Positions 30,718 to 43,632 of a stretch of 64,000 nucleotides of DNA are shown here, piece after piece. The position numbers and the translations under genes are program-made. The notes under the pieces were generated by a model. That model saw only the letters and a program-made list of their open reading frames with translations. It did no database searches and had not been told where the DNA came from. This DNA comes from Nitrososphaerota archaeon. GTDB taxonomy: Archaea > Thermoproteota > Nitrososphaeria > Nitrososphaerales > Gagatemarchaeaceae. Positions within the stretch are counted from its first letter, which is position 1. Every line of letters starts with the position of its first letter. The DNA is taken from assembly GCA_027887045.1 (NCBI GenBank), contig JAPCJH010000002.1, positions 1 to 64,000 on the forward strand, read 5' to 3'.

Positions 30718-33366
30718 TTATTGAACCGCGCCAATCGGTTTGAACTTCTCGATAGTCTCGACGAGTTCGCGCTCCAGCTTCGTTTTCCACGAGCCGAAGC
30801 CGTCCGGGGATTCAGGATACGCGAGGTTGTGCTCGACAAGAGCCGCGCTCTTCTTCACGGTGTATCTCAGCCCACGCGCGAGCTCGAACTCGTTCAGGAT
30901 CCTGAACCACATTATGGGGTTGATGTACTGGACCTTGTTGAAATCCGGATGTTTCCTGTCGATGATGTTCGAGATGTCGTCCTCCGAGAGGAAATGCTTC
31001 ATGCCGTAGTTGAGCTGCTCGTTGGTGATCGTCTGGAGGTACCTCCGCAGCACCTCGAAGCTCGCCATGGGGTACCCGTGGGTCTGCATGTATTCCGTGT
31101 TGTATCTCCAGAGGAACCTCTCGCTGAAGTCGTCCGCCTCGAGCGCATCCGCGACCACCTTGCCCAGAATCGTGGCGCCGTATATCGAGGGGCTAATCCC
31201 CCCCGCGTCGATCGGACGGGGCATCCAAGCCGCGTCGCCCACTATGGCGAAGCCGTTCGCTACGAGGCAATCGTTGTGCCTTCTCACCGGGACCTGCCAG
31301 TTCCCCTTTGTGTTCCCGAGGTCGGCGTCCCCTGCGGGAGGACGGGGGTTCCTTATCGCCGGGTTCTCACGGACGTACTGGTCTATCAAGGTCTGGAGAT
31401 TGTCGTTCAGCTTGAACCGCCTGTTCCGCCTGTCGAGCCCCGATTTCGAGACGCCGAGCCCGATGTTTACCTTGTTCTCCCCCTTGGGAAATACCCAGCA
31501 GTTGTGCACATTGAACAAGGGAGTAAAGTCGCCTGCTGAGTTCAAATCGTAGACTGCACCGGAGTACCCCTTTCGGTGAATTTTCCGAATTCCGAGATAC
31601 ACTCTTTCGTCTCCAAGTACGAATCCTCCCTGCTGGTTCCGAGAAGCGATGGTCAAGTTCTCTCCTAGGAATCTGGCTTGATGCCCAAAAACTCCCATGC
31701 TCCAAGCATTCTTCTTCTTGTTTCGCTTGATGCCGCCCACTACTCCAATCCCCGCCAGAAGAATCCACATGTCCAAGAGGAGGGCCCGCGCGGTTGTCGT
31801 GAACGTGCGCGAGTCGGGGCGCCCCCTTGTCGACCGATCCATAGAACCGTCCCCAAGATAGAAACCCCTCAGAAAAGCGAGCTTGGAATCCCGCGAAATC
31901 TCATGAATCCATGATGGCAGTTTCTTTTTACGTGCGCCTCTTCCGAAGCAGGATTCCAGGAACCTTGCGAGTAGTGAGTTTGAGATTTCTACATTAATAG
32001 TTGGTTTCTCACGATCTTTTCTCTTGCTCACCGAGTCGAAGGAGTGGAAGCCCAGACGACTAATGAGACCATGGATCCTTTCTATTAAGAGGAGATTGGA
32101 GTTCGAGATAATCGCGTGATTCTTCTTCACGCAGCCTTCCGAAACGTACCAGCCGCATAGCTGCAGAAAATCCGGCGAGAGGGCCAGCCTTATTGGGAAT
32201 CGTGTTCTTTTCGGATGCTTGGCAAGAGTTACTTTTCTCTGGTGGGATCCATCAGGTGCCCGACCGTTAAAGAAGGATCTCTTAATCGTCACATAGACGT
32301 ACCCGTCCTCCTCTATCCCGCTTACATATTGTCGAGTATCAATTTCCTCCAATGGAGCGTTGTTCGCGGGCGGCAAAGGTACCACAAGATAGTCGCCCTT
32401 CCTGTGTGAACCCCGCGTGCTCCTTATTAGTTCATCTGCACGTTTCCAAGTCTCGCCTGTCTTCGGATTCCAGACTCTGACCTTGTGTTCGGGAGTGAGC
32501 CCAATCGACTGGTTAAGCATGAATGGTGTCAAGACCACTAAGTCGCCGTTGAAATTTCTCTCGCTGGTCCCAGACACCGGCATCCATCCGCTTGACGTGA
32601 GGACTTCATCTCCCAACTTGACCTCCTGCACCGTTTTCACGCTGTTCTTGCAGATAATGGGAGTGTCTGCGGCAACACAATACCCAGCAGGAGCCTTGTA
32701 CTGGTCCAGGTGGATAAGGCAATAGTCGGGCGTGAAGTAGGTCTCGTCCTCCACTCCCTGGTCAAATTCGTAGATGTACCTCCCCGTCGCCTCGACATCG
32801 TCCAAGTCTATCTCCTTCTCGATGTTCGACTTGATCGGCAGGAACTTCCGGAGGACCGACGAAGAGCCGCTCGCGTCGATGACGACCTTTGCCGTGACCT
32901 TGAAGGGCGTGCCGCCCCGCCGTCGTCCCTCCACACCGGTGACCCGGCCGTCATCCGAGAGGAGCCTCTCGGCTGTAGCACTGAACATGAATTCCACCCC
33001 GAACTTCTCCGCGTCTCTGACCTGCCTCTGGGGCGCCAGCCTCCTGTTGAAGAGGTACCCCTCCCCCTCGAAGAGGACCTTGGTCTTGTGGTCGGGAGAA
33101 TACACTAGGACGCCCTTGACCGGATGCTCGAGCTCTGGGGAACCGTATCGGATCCCGATGTGCTCTGCAAGAAAGTCGAGACTCCTCTTGCTCGTCGCGT
33201 CCCCGCAGGTCCATCCGTTCACCGTCTTCCTCCCTGCGTCTTCCCGGGAGTTTCTGTCGATGACGAGAACGCGCGCTTTCCCCTTCGTGTGATGTCCGAC
33301 CGACGCTGCCGTGATGAGGCCGGCCATTCCGCCCCCGGCGATCACTACGTCGTAATCACGCTTCAA
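30718..33366 (-). CDS. Geranylgeranyl reductase-family flavoprotein with intein
   Basis: The precursor is 882 residues; removing a 393-residue intein gives a 489-residue flavoenzyme. The extein has an FAD Rossmann loop (VVIAGGGMAGLITAAS), a second FAD motif GFAIVGDAAWMPRPIDAGGI, and after splicing the geranylgeranyl reductase signature YCWVFPKGENKVNIGLG, which fits YxWxFPx8GxG. These enzymes saturate the isoprenoid chains of archaeal membrane lipids. The start is TTG 33366. A second family member lies at 42571-43632. Confidence 0.9.
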   Translation of the reverse strand: MKRDYDVVIAGGGMAGLITAASVGHHTKGKARVLVIDRNSREDAGRKTVNGWTCGDATSKRSLDFLAEHIGIRYGSPELEHPVKGVLVYSPDHKTKVLFEGEGYLFNRRLAPQRQVRDAEKFGVEFMFSATAERLLSDDGRVTGVEGRRRGGTPFKVTAKVVIDASGSSSVLRKFLPIKSNIEKEIDLDDVEATGRYIYEFDQGVEDETYFTPDYCLIHLDQYKAPAGYCVAADTPIICKNSVKTVQEVKLGDEVLTSSGWMPVSGTSERNFNGDLVVLTPFMLNQSIGLTPEHKVRVWNPKTGETWKRADELIRSTRGSHRKGDYLVVPLPPANNAPLEEIDTRQYVSGIEEDGYVYVTIKRSFFNGRAPDGSHQRKVTLAKHPKRTRFPIRLALSPDFLQLCGWYVSEGCVKKNHAIISNSNLLLIERIHGLISRLGFHSFDSVSKRKDREKPTINVEISNSLLARFLESCFGRGARKKKLPSWIHEISRDSKLAFLRGFYLGDGSMDRSTRGRPDSRTFTTTARALLLDMWILLAGIGVVGGIKRNKKKNAWSMGVFGHQARFLGENLTIASRNQQGGFVLGDERVYLGIRKIHRKGYSGAVYDLNSAGDFTPLFNVHNCWVFPKGENKVNIGLGVSKSGLDRRNRRFKLNDNLQTLIDQYVRENPAIRNPRPPAGDADLGNTKGNWQVPVRRHNDCLVANGFAIVGDAAWMPRPIDAGGISPSIYGATILGKVVADALEADDFSERFLWRYNTEYMQTHGYPMASFEVLRRYLQTITNEQLNYGMKHFLSEDDISNIIDRKHPDFNKVQYINPIMWFRILNEFELARGLRYTVKKSAALVEHNLAYPESPDGFGSWKTKLERELVETIEKFKPIGAVQ
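31501..32679 (-). mobile_element. Intein with LAGLIDADG endonuclease in geranylgeranyl reductase
   Basis: A 393-residue insert begins with Cys (CVAADTPIICKNSVKTVQEV; block A), has a block B-like NQSIGLTPEHKVRV, a LAGLIDADG-type endonuclease (LCGWYVSEGCVKKN and LRGFYLGDGSMDRS), and ends YDLNSAGDFTPLFNVHN before a Cys+1, i.e. the C-terminal His-Asn splice motif. It therefore has all residues needed for class 1 splicing. The insertion point is between Tyr and Cys of the YxWxFP motif, so the enzyme is inactive until splicing. Confidence 0.93.
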
Positions 33367-35289: not shown

Positions 35290-36535
35290 TTGTCTGAGCC
35301 AACAGCGAAGGAAATAATTTGGCCTCCCACGAAGGGAGACCTTGAAGAACTGTACGTCCGTCAACGCCTCTCGGCCGCAAAAATCGCAAAGGTGTACGGC
35401 TTGAATTACAAGAGCGAGAAGACCCCCGAATCGACCGTTCTTTTACCATCTTAAAATGAGTGGAATCAAGAGGCGAGACTCCGCTGAACACGTGCGAAAG
35501 GTGACCGAGGAGATGGTCGATGATTGGGTCAGGCGGTATCAAGCAGGAGAGTCTCTGAAGCAAATTGCGGGAACTGACGTTGACCACGTAACTGTCTTTC
35601 TGCACTTGAAGAAGCGCGGATTGAAACTTCGTGATAAGGTGGAGGCACAGATCAAAGCCGTGACAAAGTATGAGAAGACCCCCTTCGAAGGTGACGATGT
35701 CCATCGCGCTTACCTCGTAGGATTTGCAACTGGAGACCTTGACGTAGTGAAGCATGGAAGAGCCGTGCGAGTGAGGACTTCCACAACGCATCCTGCGATG
35801 GTGTCGTTGTTTGACTCTCTGTTCGCATCGAGTGGCAGGGTGAAGAGATACCCTAGAGAAGCGAAGTTGACCGGTTACGAGTGGGACTTGGAGGTTGACT
35901 TGGACGCAAGTTACGAGTTTATGTTCGACAAAAATATCGTCCGGCGAACTTACAATCGTACAATTTTCATGAGTTATCTCGCTGGGGTCTTCGACGCTGA
36001 AGGATCCATATATCTCCACAACAAGAACGCGTCAATCGCGCCGGAACTGTCGATTGGAAACACGAATCTTGAATTGCTGGAAACTCTGAGGGCGAATCTC
36101 TTTCAAAGCAGTATTTTTTCGTCGTTGACTTTTCAGGAAAAGAATGTTGGAAGCGTTGGAAGTATCCCGGGGCCTATCTGGAGGCTTAGAGTTTGGAGAT
36201 TTGGTGATGTGGTCAAGTTATTGACGACACTCCCCCTGCGACACCCAGAGAAAATTTCGAAGAAGGGGCTAGTCTTGAAAATGAAGCGGCCGCTAAGTAG
36301 CATGATTAATTTAGAAACCTGGAAAAACTGGGATGCTTTGCTGGATGGTATCGAACACGGACGACGAGCGTTCATAGATCAAGCAAAAACAGAGATTCTT
36401 GCGCACAGCAAACAGAGTCGGAATCAACCCATTCTTGAAAATCGATATATCGCAGTTGCCCACGGCTATCCGAAGAAGAATTTTATGTTTCGATGTCGAA
36501 AGTTGCATTATTTATCCGCGTGTACTGGCCAATAA
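35290..36535 (+). pseudogene. Free-standing LAGLIDADG homing endonuclease, frameshifted
   Basis: Two frames together make one protein of about 413 residues. The first (TTG 35290 to TAA 35452) encodes a helix-turn-helix (DLEELYVRQRLSAAKIAKVY, GLNYKSEKTPESTV); the second (from 35456) continues FYHLKMSGIKRRDSAEHVRK after a one-base shift inside the run TTTT near 35441-35444. The rest has a second HTH-like repeat and two LAGLIDADG-type helices (YLVGFATGDLDVV and YLAGVFDAEGSIY). A TATA-like GCTTAATAATG is 25 bases before TTG. It ends antisense within the 3' end of nuoD. One base loss or gain, or a sequencing error, explains the break. Confidence 0.8.
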
Positions 36536-38133: not shown

Positions 38134-39882
38134 CTATGCTCCACTTAGGCTCGGTGAATGTCGGATCTTGTCCTGAAGGAGGACTATCCCCTGGAGGAGG
38201 GCTTCGGCTCTCGGGGGGCACCCGGGGACGTAGACGTCTACCGGGATGATGTCGTCTATCCCCCTGAGGACGTTGTATGAGTCAAAATAGAGCCCACCTG
38301 TGATCGCACAGTTGTGGACTAGCATCCCGTTGGCGAAGAAGTTGTGGTGTCCTTCTACCTCGATGTCGTAAACCGGCTCCCGCCCTGCAGGTGTGATCGA
38401 TGTCACCCTCTGCAAACCTATCCCCTTATGTTTCGTTTGCAAAAGGGACTTGCCGTCGAAGGAACGCAGTGGTCGCTTCACCCTTGTGATGTAGTCAGGT
38501 CTGTGCAGAGGCAGCTTGGCTACGACTGAGCTGGGGAAGGAAACGATATGTTCCGTGGACCTCAGAAGTCTGCCCTCGAGCACGTTTTCCTTTTCCTTCT
38601 CGAATACCCCGCCGACGTGTAGCCCGCGGTAGTGGCAGAGTTCGACAAGGTCTTCCATCATCTCCCTGTTTGCGGAGCTGACCGAGGCAAACCCTTCTTT
38701 CTGGACGTATCCATCAGACTCGATCATTCCAGTTATGAAGCTCAGCAAGCTCGGCATCGGAAGGGTGTAGACCCAGGGTGGGATTCTTTTTGTGTATACA
38801 TCGCCTCGAAGAAGAAGCGATTGCTTTAGCATCCCGGCGACTTCGATTGACCCGATTACGACTTGTCGTCCGGCTTTAGGCACAATACCGAAGAGCTCGT
38901 TCACGGTCTTGATCAGATGCGGGCGCGACTGATCGCCGAGCATAAGTGAAAATCCGACCCGATACTTATCACTCCATCCATCTCCCAAATAGACGCCGGC
39001 AAGCCAGGCCATCTTCTCGTCAACCTTGTCGGGCATTGTCGCCCTGTGGGGCAGATCGTGGGATTGAGGGAACCTTATTGCTCGCGCCGTCTCAGGGATT
39101 TTTTCGCCGAACGTGAACAACAAGTCACTTTCAGTAATTTCAGACAGCGGTTTCCAGACCACATCCATTCCGTATTGAGCCGGGGGATGCGCCTTCCAGT
39201 GAACAAGAGTCTTGGGCGAAACACCCGTAAGAGCTGATATTTCTCTCAGTGTGAATCCCTCGTCTCGCATCGCGAGGGCTGATTGATGGGCCACCCATTT
39301 TCTTGAAAGCGTTTGCGAATAGGCTGCGAAAGGGTGGTCGTCTGTTGCCACGAGTTCGTAGGAGCCGGCCCTGATTCTGAAGACCTCCCTGACCCCTTGT
39401 ACTTTTGTTTCGACCACTCGTGCGGTGACCGTCCTCCTTTCTTGTTCATCTAAGGCGTACACTGGATCGCCAGCGCGGACCTGATCAATTCGAACTAATC
39501 CCTCTGGCGTGTAGACCCTCGATTCACCCGAAATACATGCACCCATCGCAATAATATAGCGAGGTTCCGGCATCTGGTCGTAGATCAGCTTTAGCCTCGG
39601 AGCGAGCTTACGCGTGACGGTGCCCATCACGATGAGCAGATCGCACTGTCTGAGCGAGCCGAATGCCTCTAGCACGCCAAACCTCTCCATGTCGAACCTT
39701 GAACCCGCGGCGGCTCCGACCTCGACGCTGCAGCACGCCGTTTCGAGATGGACGGGCCAGAGCGAGTAGAGCCTTCCCCAGTTCGCGAGGTAGCGGATCG
39801 GGGCGCCTATGTTGTCCTGGATGATTTCGCTGAGCTTCCCTACGAGGGCGTTGAACGCGCCGTCCTTCTGGACCGCTACCAA
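38134..39882 (-). CDS. nuoB: Complex I subunit NuoB carrying an intein
   Basis: Starting at TTG 39882, which overlaps the nuoA stop region, the precursor is 582 residues; removal of a 409-residue intein gives a 173-residue NuoB. The extein contains [20 protein letters not shown] (two N2-cluster Cys), [20 protein letters not shown], and after splicing [16 protein letters not shown] (third Cys) and [16 protein letters not shown] (fourth). NuoB carries the terminal iron-sulfur cluster N2 that hands electrons to quinone. Confidence 0.95.
38311..39537 (-). mobile_element. Intein with LAGLIDADG endonuclease and internal HTH in NuoB
   Basis: The 409-residue insert starts [20 protein letters not shown] (block A), has block [20 protein letters not shown], two LAGLIDADG motifs ([15 protein letters not shown] and [13 protein letters not shown]) and ends [21 protein letters not shown] then Cys+1. 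Between block B and the endonuclease is a helix-turn-helix, [20 protein letters not shown] followed by PKTLVHWK, which is unusual. Insertion lies exactly before the N2-cluster cysteine of MGA^C, a highly conserved site, so unspliced NuoB lacks a cluster ligand context. Confidence 0.93.
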
Positions 39883-40247
39883 AGCTCGCGCCTCCCCGCG
39901 AGGTACATCGCGAGTCCGAGCGGAACGAAGAGCATCCCCATGAAGATCGTGAGGACCCAGCTTGAGGAGACCCCGAGGGCGAGCGGCTGATAGGCGGAGG
40001 CCCAGGCGTAGAGGAACATAGTCATCACGTCGAATACGATGAACATCAACAGGTAAGCGTAGTACTGCATCATGTAGTGCATCTTCCCCGCGCCCGTCGG
40101 GACCTGCCCCGTCTCGAAGGTCAGGTTCTTGATCGGGTTGGGCCTGTGGGGGGCGAGAATCTTCGGGATTATTATCACCGGAAGCGTGAACATGACCCCG
40201 ACTAGCCCCATCATGAAGACCGAACCTATGTCTCCGAAGAGTGCCAA
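39876..40247 (-). CDS. nuoA: Complex I subunit NuoA
   Basis: The 123-residue membrane protein has three helices: [36 protein letters not shown] (with the conserved FDV/E acidic region) and the C-terminal [20 protein letters not shown], and the loop motif [12 protein letters not shown], equivalent to YECG in other NuoA. It starts the nuoABCD run reading right to left and overlaps nuoB by seven bases. Confidence 0.93.
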
Positions 40248-40325
40248 GGCGAAATTCCTCGAACCGCTTTATTCTATTTAAGGGCTTGGTCGGGAAAGTT
40301 CGGTTCTGTCCCAATATCGGTTGTT

Positions 40326-42570: not shown

Positions 42571-43632
42571 GTGAACGAGGCGAAACCATTATCACTCGGG
42601 CGCGCAGCGCAACTGCGTCAGCTTTTGAAGATCGCGGTAGTGGGGGCAGGCGTCTCTGGCGCGTATCTCCTGAACCGGATCCCGGGGGAGCATCAGGTAG
42701 AATGTTTCGAAAGAAGGCCCGAAGACAAATGGTACACAGTGTGCGCGTGGGGTACCAGCGAGCCTTTCATCAAGGACATGTTCAAGTCGGCAGGATTCGA
42801 CTTCGAAAAGTACGTCCTCCACAGGGGGAAGAAGATGACGGTAGACCTTGGGACCGAACAGTTCGAAATTAAACTCAAGGGGCTGGTGACATACGACAAG
42901 CACGCGCTGACCCACGACATGATTGAGGGGCACAACATGCACTGGGGCAGCCACGTCACGGAGGTCGACGGAAACTTCAGCGACTTCGACATTGTGGTCG
43001 ACGCGACGGGGCTTCACAGGGCGCTTCTCCCAAAGATCGAGAACGACATTGTCATCCCGTCCCTCGAGTACCAAGTGAAGTCGAAGGAGCTGCCGTATGA
43101 CGATTTCTACATAAGACCCTACAGCGGACTTTCGGGCTACTACTGGTTCTTCCCGCTCGGGGAGGGGATGGGACACATAGGGGCGGGGGATTACTTCGGG
43201 AAATACAGGGGGGAACTGGACGACTTTGTCAAGAAGTATCATTGTGAAGTCATCCGGAAGATAGGGAGGCCAGTCAGGGTGTCTCCACCACTGTATTGCC
43301 AACCGTTTACTTCGGGGAAGGTCGTGGGTGTTGGAGAGTCGATCGGGACGGTCTACCCGATGCTTGGGGAGGGGATAATCCCGAGCATGCAGTGCGCAGA
43401 CATCTTCGTGGAGCACATGGATGACATGAAGGGATACAGTGAAGCGGTCCTGAAGAAGTTCGCCGTCTACGCGAAGGTGTTCAAGTTTATCAAAGCGAAG
43501 CTCGATGGGAACTTCAGTCTCGCGAGCTACTGGCCAACGCTCCTTTCCGTCTTCTTCTATATGAAGAGGAATGAGACCAGGTACGGCTTACAGACGAAGC
43601 TTATGGATCTATTCAGGGTACTGAACGCCTAG
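42571..43632 (+). CDS. Geranylgeranyl reductase-family FAD oxidoreductase, second paralogue
   Basis: Up to 353 residues from GTG 42571 (TTG 42625 would start at LKIAVVGAGVSGAYLL, the usual N-terminus). It has the FAD loop VVGAGVSGAYLLNRIPG, the signature YYWFFPLGEGMGHIGAG, matching YxWxFPx8GxG with GEGMGHI, and VVGVGESIGTVYPMLGEGI near the flavin. Unlike the paralogue at 30718-33366 it has no intein. A lipid-saturating or related reductase is likely; substrate could differ between the two. Divergent from citrate synthase. Confidence 0.85.
   Translation: MNEAKPLSLGRAAQLRQLLKIAVVGAGVSGAYLLNRIPGEHQVECFERRPEDKWYTVCAWGTSEPFIKDMFKSAGFDFEKYVLHRGKKMTVDLGTEQFEIKLKGLVTYDKHALTHDMIEGHNMHWGSHVTEVDGNFSDFDIVVDATGLHRALLPKIENDIVIPSLEYQVKSKELPYDDFYIRPYSGLSGYYWFFPLGEGMGHIGAGDYFGKYRGELDDFVKKYHCEVIRKIGRPVRVSPPLYCQPFTSGKVVGVGESIGTVYPMLGEGIIPSMQCADIFVEHMDDMKGYSEAVLKKFAVYAKVFKFIKAKLDGNFSLASYWPTLLSVFFYMKRNETRYGLQTKLMDLFRVLNA

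Follow-up and report, generated by a model that had tools for sequence, protein, structure and literature searches.

Inteins that combine a Hint splicing domain with a two-motif LAGLIDADG endonuclease and that are inserted in an active-site motif are represented by the archaeal and yeast VMA inteins (TliVMA, PDB 7qsu; PhoVMA, 7qst; PI-SceI), and the element described here is alike in these respects. In the case of the haloarchaeal MCM-d intein, most empty sites carry Pro at position +1, a residue unsuited to splicing, whereas occupied sites carry Ser, and invasion by this intein requires co-conversion of the +1 codon (PMC10643990). In a published survey of 18 thaumarchaeal genomes, a single intein was counted (PMC10643990). 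We have analyzed an intein in a geranylgeranyl reductase (GGR) gene of a soil-type thaumarchaeon, located in a window of 64,000 nucleotides, the term referring to the whole stretch of DNA studied. Our preferred reading, held with a probability of about 0.92, is that this insert of a thaumarchaeal GGR belongs to the class-1 inteins, carries a homing endonuclease with two LAGLIDADG motifs, and behaves as a homing selfish element.

The interrupted gene and the anatomy of the intein

The initial annotation had placed an intein at positions 31501 to 32679, directly after the Tyr of the YxWxFPx8GxG signature. The exact coordinates were borne out, and the 393-residue insert shares one open frame with the GGR gene (Table 1). 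The site was confirmed by alignment with the S. acidocaldarius GGR (SaGGR) structures 3atq and 4opd, which match the full length of the extein with E values of about 1e-57 and place the insertion between the Tyr and the Trp of GYWWYFPKG (SaGGR Y215/W216). In silico removal of the intein, precursor residues 230 to 622, resulted in a joined protein of 489 residues, the length that had been expected for the spliced product. The junctions read PAGY/CVAADTPI...LFNVHN/CWVFPKGENKVNIGLG, and the motif, once joined, is YCWVFP-x8-GLG. The YXWXFP segment corresponds to SaGGR residues 215 to 220, to which substrate interactions have been ascribed, and YxWxFPx7-8GxG has been given as the definition of the GGR motif (PMC6309074); the extein carries this motif. 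The best NCBIfam model for the joined extein protein was NF041080 (E = 1.4e-86), with a score of 291 bits that did not reach the equivalog cut-off of 580 bits. The joined protein is a GGR of the thaumarchaeal, digeranylgeranylglycerophospholipid type and belongs to the superfamily of this best model, but its exact substrate is not certain.

Table 1. Features of the GGR precursor gene and its intein (positions in the window)
Feature	Positions	Strand	Remarks
GGR precursor gene, TTG start	30718..33366	-	882 codons, uninterrupted; comprises N-extein, intein, and C-extein
N-extein, 229 aa, FAD-binding part, ending ...HLDQYKAPAGY	32680..33366	-	
Intein, 393 aa, Cys1 to Asn393	31501..32679	-	AlphaFold pLDDT 83.9; PDB fold match to TliVMA intein, E = 7e-16
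Block A, C1-VAADTPI; Cys1 codon at 32677-32679	32656..32679	-	
Block B, TPEHKVRV (T62, H65)	32473..32496	-	T62 and H65 near invariant in 14 inteins
LAGLIDADG helix 1, LCGWYVSEGC (E181)	32131..32160	-	Invariant in four intact copies; E to N in G063
LAGLIDADG helix 2, LRGFYLGDGS (D277)	31843..31872	-	Invariant in four intact copies; broken in G063
Blocks F and G, AVYDLNSAGDFTPLFNVHN; penultimate His, terminal Asn; block F atypical, shortened	31501..31557	-	Blocks F/G kept in all five copies; outside Pfam model coverage
+1 extein residue Cys (TGC), predicted splicing nucleophile	31498..31500	-	Most empty relatives have Ala
C-extein, CWVFPKGENKVNIGLG..., catalytic and C-terminal domains	30718..31500	-	Pfam GGR_cat

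The window intein has Cys1, the block B residues T62PEH65, the penultimate H392, N393, and the +1 Cys all in place. Cys1 was found in every intein copy with a visible start, and all five copies contain VHN/C. Acidic residues are present in both LAGLIDADG helices, namely, E181 in GWYVSEG and D277 in FYLGDGS, and their invariance in the four intact copies agrees with the proposal that both helices are intact. The splice-junction motifs had likewise been described as intact. All catalytic junction residues are indeed present, but the description does not extend to block F, which is atypical, and the score obtained with the Pfam model Intein_splicing (PF14890) was 18.2 bits, compared with a cut-off of 35.8 bits; the TIGR splicing models likewise failed. 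Block F of inteins usually contains an Asp followed by an HN-type motif. In the C-terminal splicing block of the window intein, VYDLNSAGDFTPLFNVHN, the YD is retained, GD stands in place of the HN of block F, and the block is shorter than usual. The GC3 value of the intein was 0.585, compared with about 0.81 for the exteins.

An AlphaFold model of the window intein derived from a 14-row intein alignment reached a pLDDT of 83.9, as compared to only 44 for a 4-sequence alignment. The model predicts a Hint fold, with the C-terminal 8 residues (386 to 393) being unsure due to low confidence. Chance is excluded as the source of the intein call by (i) the presence of the intein at the same codon in five genomes, (ii) the match of the window intein to the Pfam family LAGLIDADG_3 (PF14528; E = 5.7e-17), and (iii) a Foldseek search against the PDB, in which the model matched complete intein-endonucleases, the best being the TliVMA intein (7qsu; E = 7e-16). 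The splicing pathway that we infer would consist of an N-S acyl shift at Cys1, transfer to Cys+1, cyclization of Asn393 aided by His392, and a final S-N shift that leaves YCWVFP. With its YxWxFP active-site motif interrupted by the insert, the unspliced precursor would be expected to lack activity.

Distribution, the +1 residue, and divergence between sister genes

The initial annotation had proposed a survey of the insertion site in other archaeal reductases. Among 61 relatives and 400 genomes of the class, the same codon was found to be occupied in five genomes, namely, that of the window (G000) and four others (G002, G009, G001, and G063). The G063 copy belongs to another order of the class, and the G001 copy is cut by the contig end. 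The GGR protein of G009 is also present in the MAGs YP3.bin16 and WH2.bin77, and that of G001 in Thaumarchaeota archaeon TA_8. Most relatives, including many close ones, are empty, and 26 empty GGR genes align gap-free across the insertion site. On the extein tree, a quick reconstruction with SH-aLRT support only that left 13 of 43 inner branches without resolution, the five scattered intein occurrences require five changes. Intein and extein identities were discordant, with values of 62.5% and 82.5%, respectively, for G002/G009 and of 66.2% and 70.8% for G002/G001. When 398 genomes sampled from the phylum were scanned, the only GGR intein recovered was the window's own; the weak hits inspected from this sample lie in other hosts, which, judged by sequence, seem to be an ABCE1-like ATPase and a radical SAM enzyme resembling Tes. 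No relative of the GGR intein was found in the viral contigs scanned. A scan of genome contigs with narrow peptide patterns returned three loci and missed the G063 copy, so that it sets no bound on the distribution. The genome of the window is a draft, 55.6% complete.

The endonuclease of G063 (L046/L070) is ruined, with the Glu of helix 1 replaced by Asn and the motif of helix 2 broken. Compared to the other copies, this endonuclease is 28 to 35% identical, whereas the Hint halves are 60 to 78% and the extein is about 62 to 65% identical; for entire inteins, identities between the orders are 38 to 47%, against 62 to 65% for the exteins. G063 combines a dead endonuclease with well-kept Hint halves, the latter conserved to about the same degree as the extein, and splicing therefore appears to have been kept by selection; such a pattern would be expected if splicing is needed by the host.

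The +1 residue occupies the variable x of YxWxFP and is Trp in SaGGR. The Cys at this position had been considered native to the reductase, a view that is contradicted by the empty sites of the host family, which, as retrieved by pattern (n = 31), contain Ala in 28 cases and Cys, Gly, and Ser in one case each, as well as by the G009/G012 comparison below. All five occupied GGR genes carry Cys. In the class beyond the host family, empty genes have mostly Gly or Ala at +1 and in a few cases Cys (G044, G060, G372, G084, and G087). Judging from these residues, Cys at +1 is a requirement of the intein and not the usual residue of GGR in the host family. The rare Cys-bearing empty genes of other families suggest that some insertion sites may already have had Cys prior to invasion.

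The sister genes of G009, which has the intein, and G012, which lacks it, have exteins that are 96% identical. The best tract of elevated divergence spans positions -79 to +1, where 27 of 81 nucleotides differ, compared with 5.8% outside, and none of 2,000 permutations was as strong. This tract ends at the +1 codon, which is GCC (Ala) in G012 and TGC (Cys) in G009. For the region from -90 to +2, 27 of 93 nucleotides differ, against 75 of 1,380 elsewhere (Fisher P = 9e-12), and excess divergence beside the site was not found over the same region in eight intein-free pairs. The G009 tract is nearest to G031 (15 differences in 84 positions; 22 for the next-nearest), whereas the remainder of the G009 gene is nearest to G012. 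G031 has an empty site with Cys at +1 (L015), and its flank, similar to the G009 tract, makes it a candidate for intein loss or for a donor-like empty allele. In a further pair, G001 (with intein) and G010 (without), for which the comparison covers the visible C side because G001 lies at a contig end, 32 of 186 nucleotides differ between 0 and +185, against 30 of 594 (P = 1e-6), and the divergence is patchier. We read the G009/G012 tract as a co-conversion footprint of homing, and the Cys codon appears to have arrived together with the intein in at least one case, that of the G009 versus the G012 lineage. The footprint is read in pairs of relatives; the window copy is without a close empty sister.

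Homing element, molecular switch, or relic

The initial annotation had suggested that lipid saturation might be split between the splicing-dependent GGR and an always-active paralogue encoded at positions 42571 to 43632. We rejected this protein as a GGR paralogue acting as backup. It is a distant flavoprotein (no significant BLASTP similarity to GGR, E = 0.11; 46.6 bits compared with the GGR-superfamily cut-off of 158.8 bits of TIGR02032) that occurs in 43 of 46 genomes, hence in nearly every relative, irrespective of the GGR intein. A stronger member of the superfamily is present elsewhere in the same genome (G000:C1:134133; about 159 bits on TIGR02032). The comparisons of distribution and similarity provided no supporting evidence for an intein-dependent division of labor among these two proteins and GGR.

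A conditional splicing switch would make GGR activity, and so the saturation of membrane lipids, dependent on a cue, for example redox state or temperature, in the lineages that keep the intein, with a second reductase as an always-on backup. In favor of such a device are an insertion that blocks the active-site motif and a dependence of splicing on Cys1 and Cys+1, which could in principle sense the redox state, but the closest relatives, with exteins 96% identical, do without the intein, the supposed backup is present with or without it and is merely a distant relative, and the conversion tract and the decay of the endonuclease suit a selfish element. Nothing points to regulation by splicing, and we consider such a switch very unlikely. 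An even lower probability is given to strictly vertical inheritance, according to which the intein was present in the class ancestor and was lost many times without recent homing. The foreign-like tract of G009/G012 that stops at the +1 codon argues against this scenario, as do, within the host family, the intein identities of G002/G009 and G002/G001 that diverge from the extein pattern; the use of the same codon across two orders, the lower identity of inteins than of exteins between these orders, and the Cys retained by some empty genes are compatible with it, and occasional intein losses are likely. That the insert is a splicing-dead relic or an assembly artefact and that GGR is not made is, in our estimate, extremely unlikely: the atypical blocks F/G, the failure of the splicing models from both Pfam and TIGR, and the draft state of the genome (55.6% complete) are outweighed by open frames in five independent genomes, the retention of every catalytic splice residue, and the pairing of a dead endonuclease with well-kept splicing halves in G063.

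According to the homing reading that we prefer, the endonuclease would cut intein-free GGR alleles, and repair would copy the intein along with flanking DNA. As suggested by the one well-readable lineage pair, the copied flank would have held the Cys codon that splicing requires and that is absent from most empty alleles. The intact copies, the G063 copy with its dead endonuclease, and the empty sites would then represent stages of a homing cycle, and we infer the histories of single empty sites in this sense. In the G009/G012 pair, homing has left a natural record that can be read, and the element appears there to have brought its own splicing nucleophile; a co-converted Cys would account for the entry of the intein into a gene whose empty allele has no Cys, Ser, or Thr at +1.

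Neighboring inteins and relation to known systems

The genome of the window contains about 12 inteins, even though it is 56% complete. Those outside the window (L090, L091, L092, L093, and L094) are located in topoisomerase VI A (2), a radical SAM protein, MCM (2), a Hel308-like helicase (2), SufB, and a NuoI-like protein (2), to which NuoB and GGR are added. The host family is intein-rich, in contrast to the single intein of the survey mentioned above. Within the window, a NuoB-like gene (38134 to 40314, minus strand) contains another intein (MGA/C...) directly ahead of one Cys of the iron-sulfur motif, and the NuoB intein site of relatives (LETAC/C) is empty in this gene. The interval separating the GGR gene from the Nuo genes encodes a free-standing LAGLIDADG protein of 359 aa (35456 to 36535, plus strand), whose gene is convergent with nuoD and overlaps it slightly. 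In other members of the phylum, an intein (VVHN/CVKKCPF; L107 and L110) is located at an iron-sulfur Cys motif of a protein that by its sequence is apparently an ABCE1/RLI-type ATPase.

In searchable open-access full text, GGR is apparently unreported as an intein host, and this membrane-lipid enzyme is added to the list of such hosts. The intein itself is a homing intein of the ordinary type, with unusually clear evidence of natural homing. The nearest other inteins found were the NuoB inteins of the host archaeal family (site LETAC/C), with 29 to 31% full-length identity; they differ in their host, complex I subunit B, in a longer C-terminal block ending in AVVHN, and in their target. The VMA inteins share about 14% identity with the GGR intein and have another host protein and target, and the short block F of the GGR intein is atypical in comparison. 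The intein of the tetraether lipid synthase Tes (NCBIfam NF045703) also resides in an archaeal membrane-lipid enzyme and matches weakly in its endonuclease part, but its host is a radical SAM protein and its site is different. With respect to the haloarchaeal MCM-d intein, the change at +1 is from Ala to Cys in the present case, the host is a lipid enzyme, that of MCM-d being a helicase, and the lineage is that of the Thaumarchaeota.
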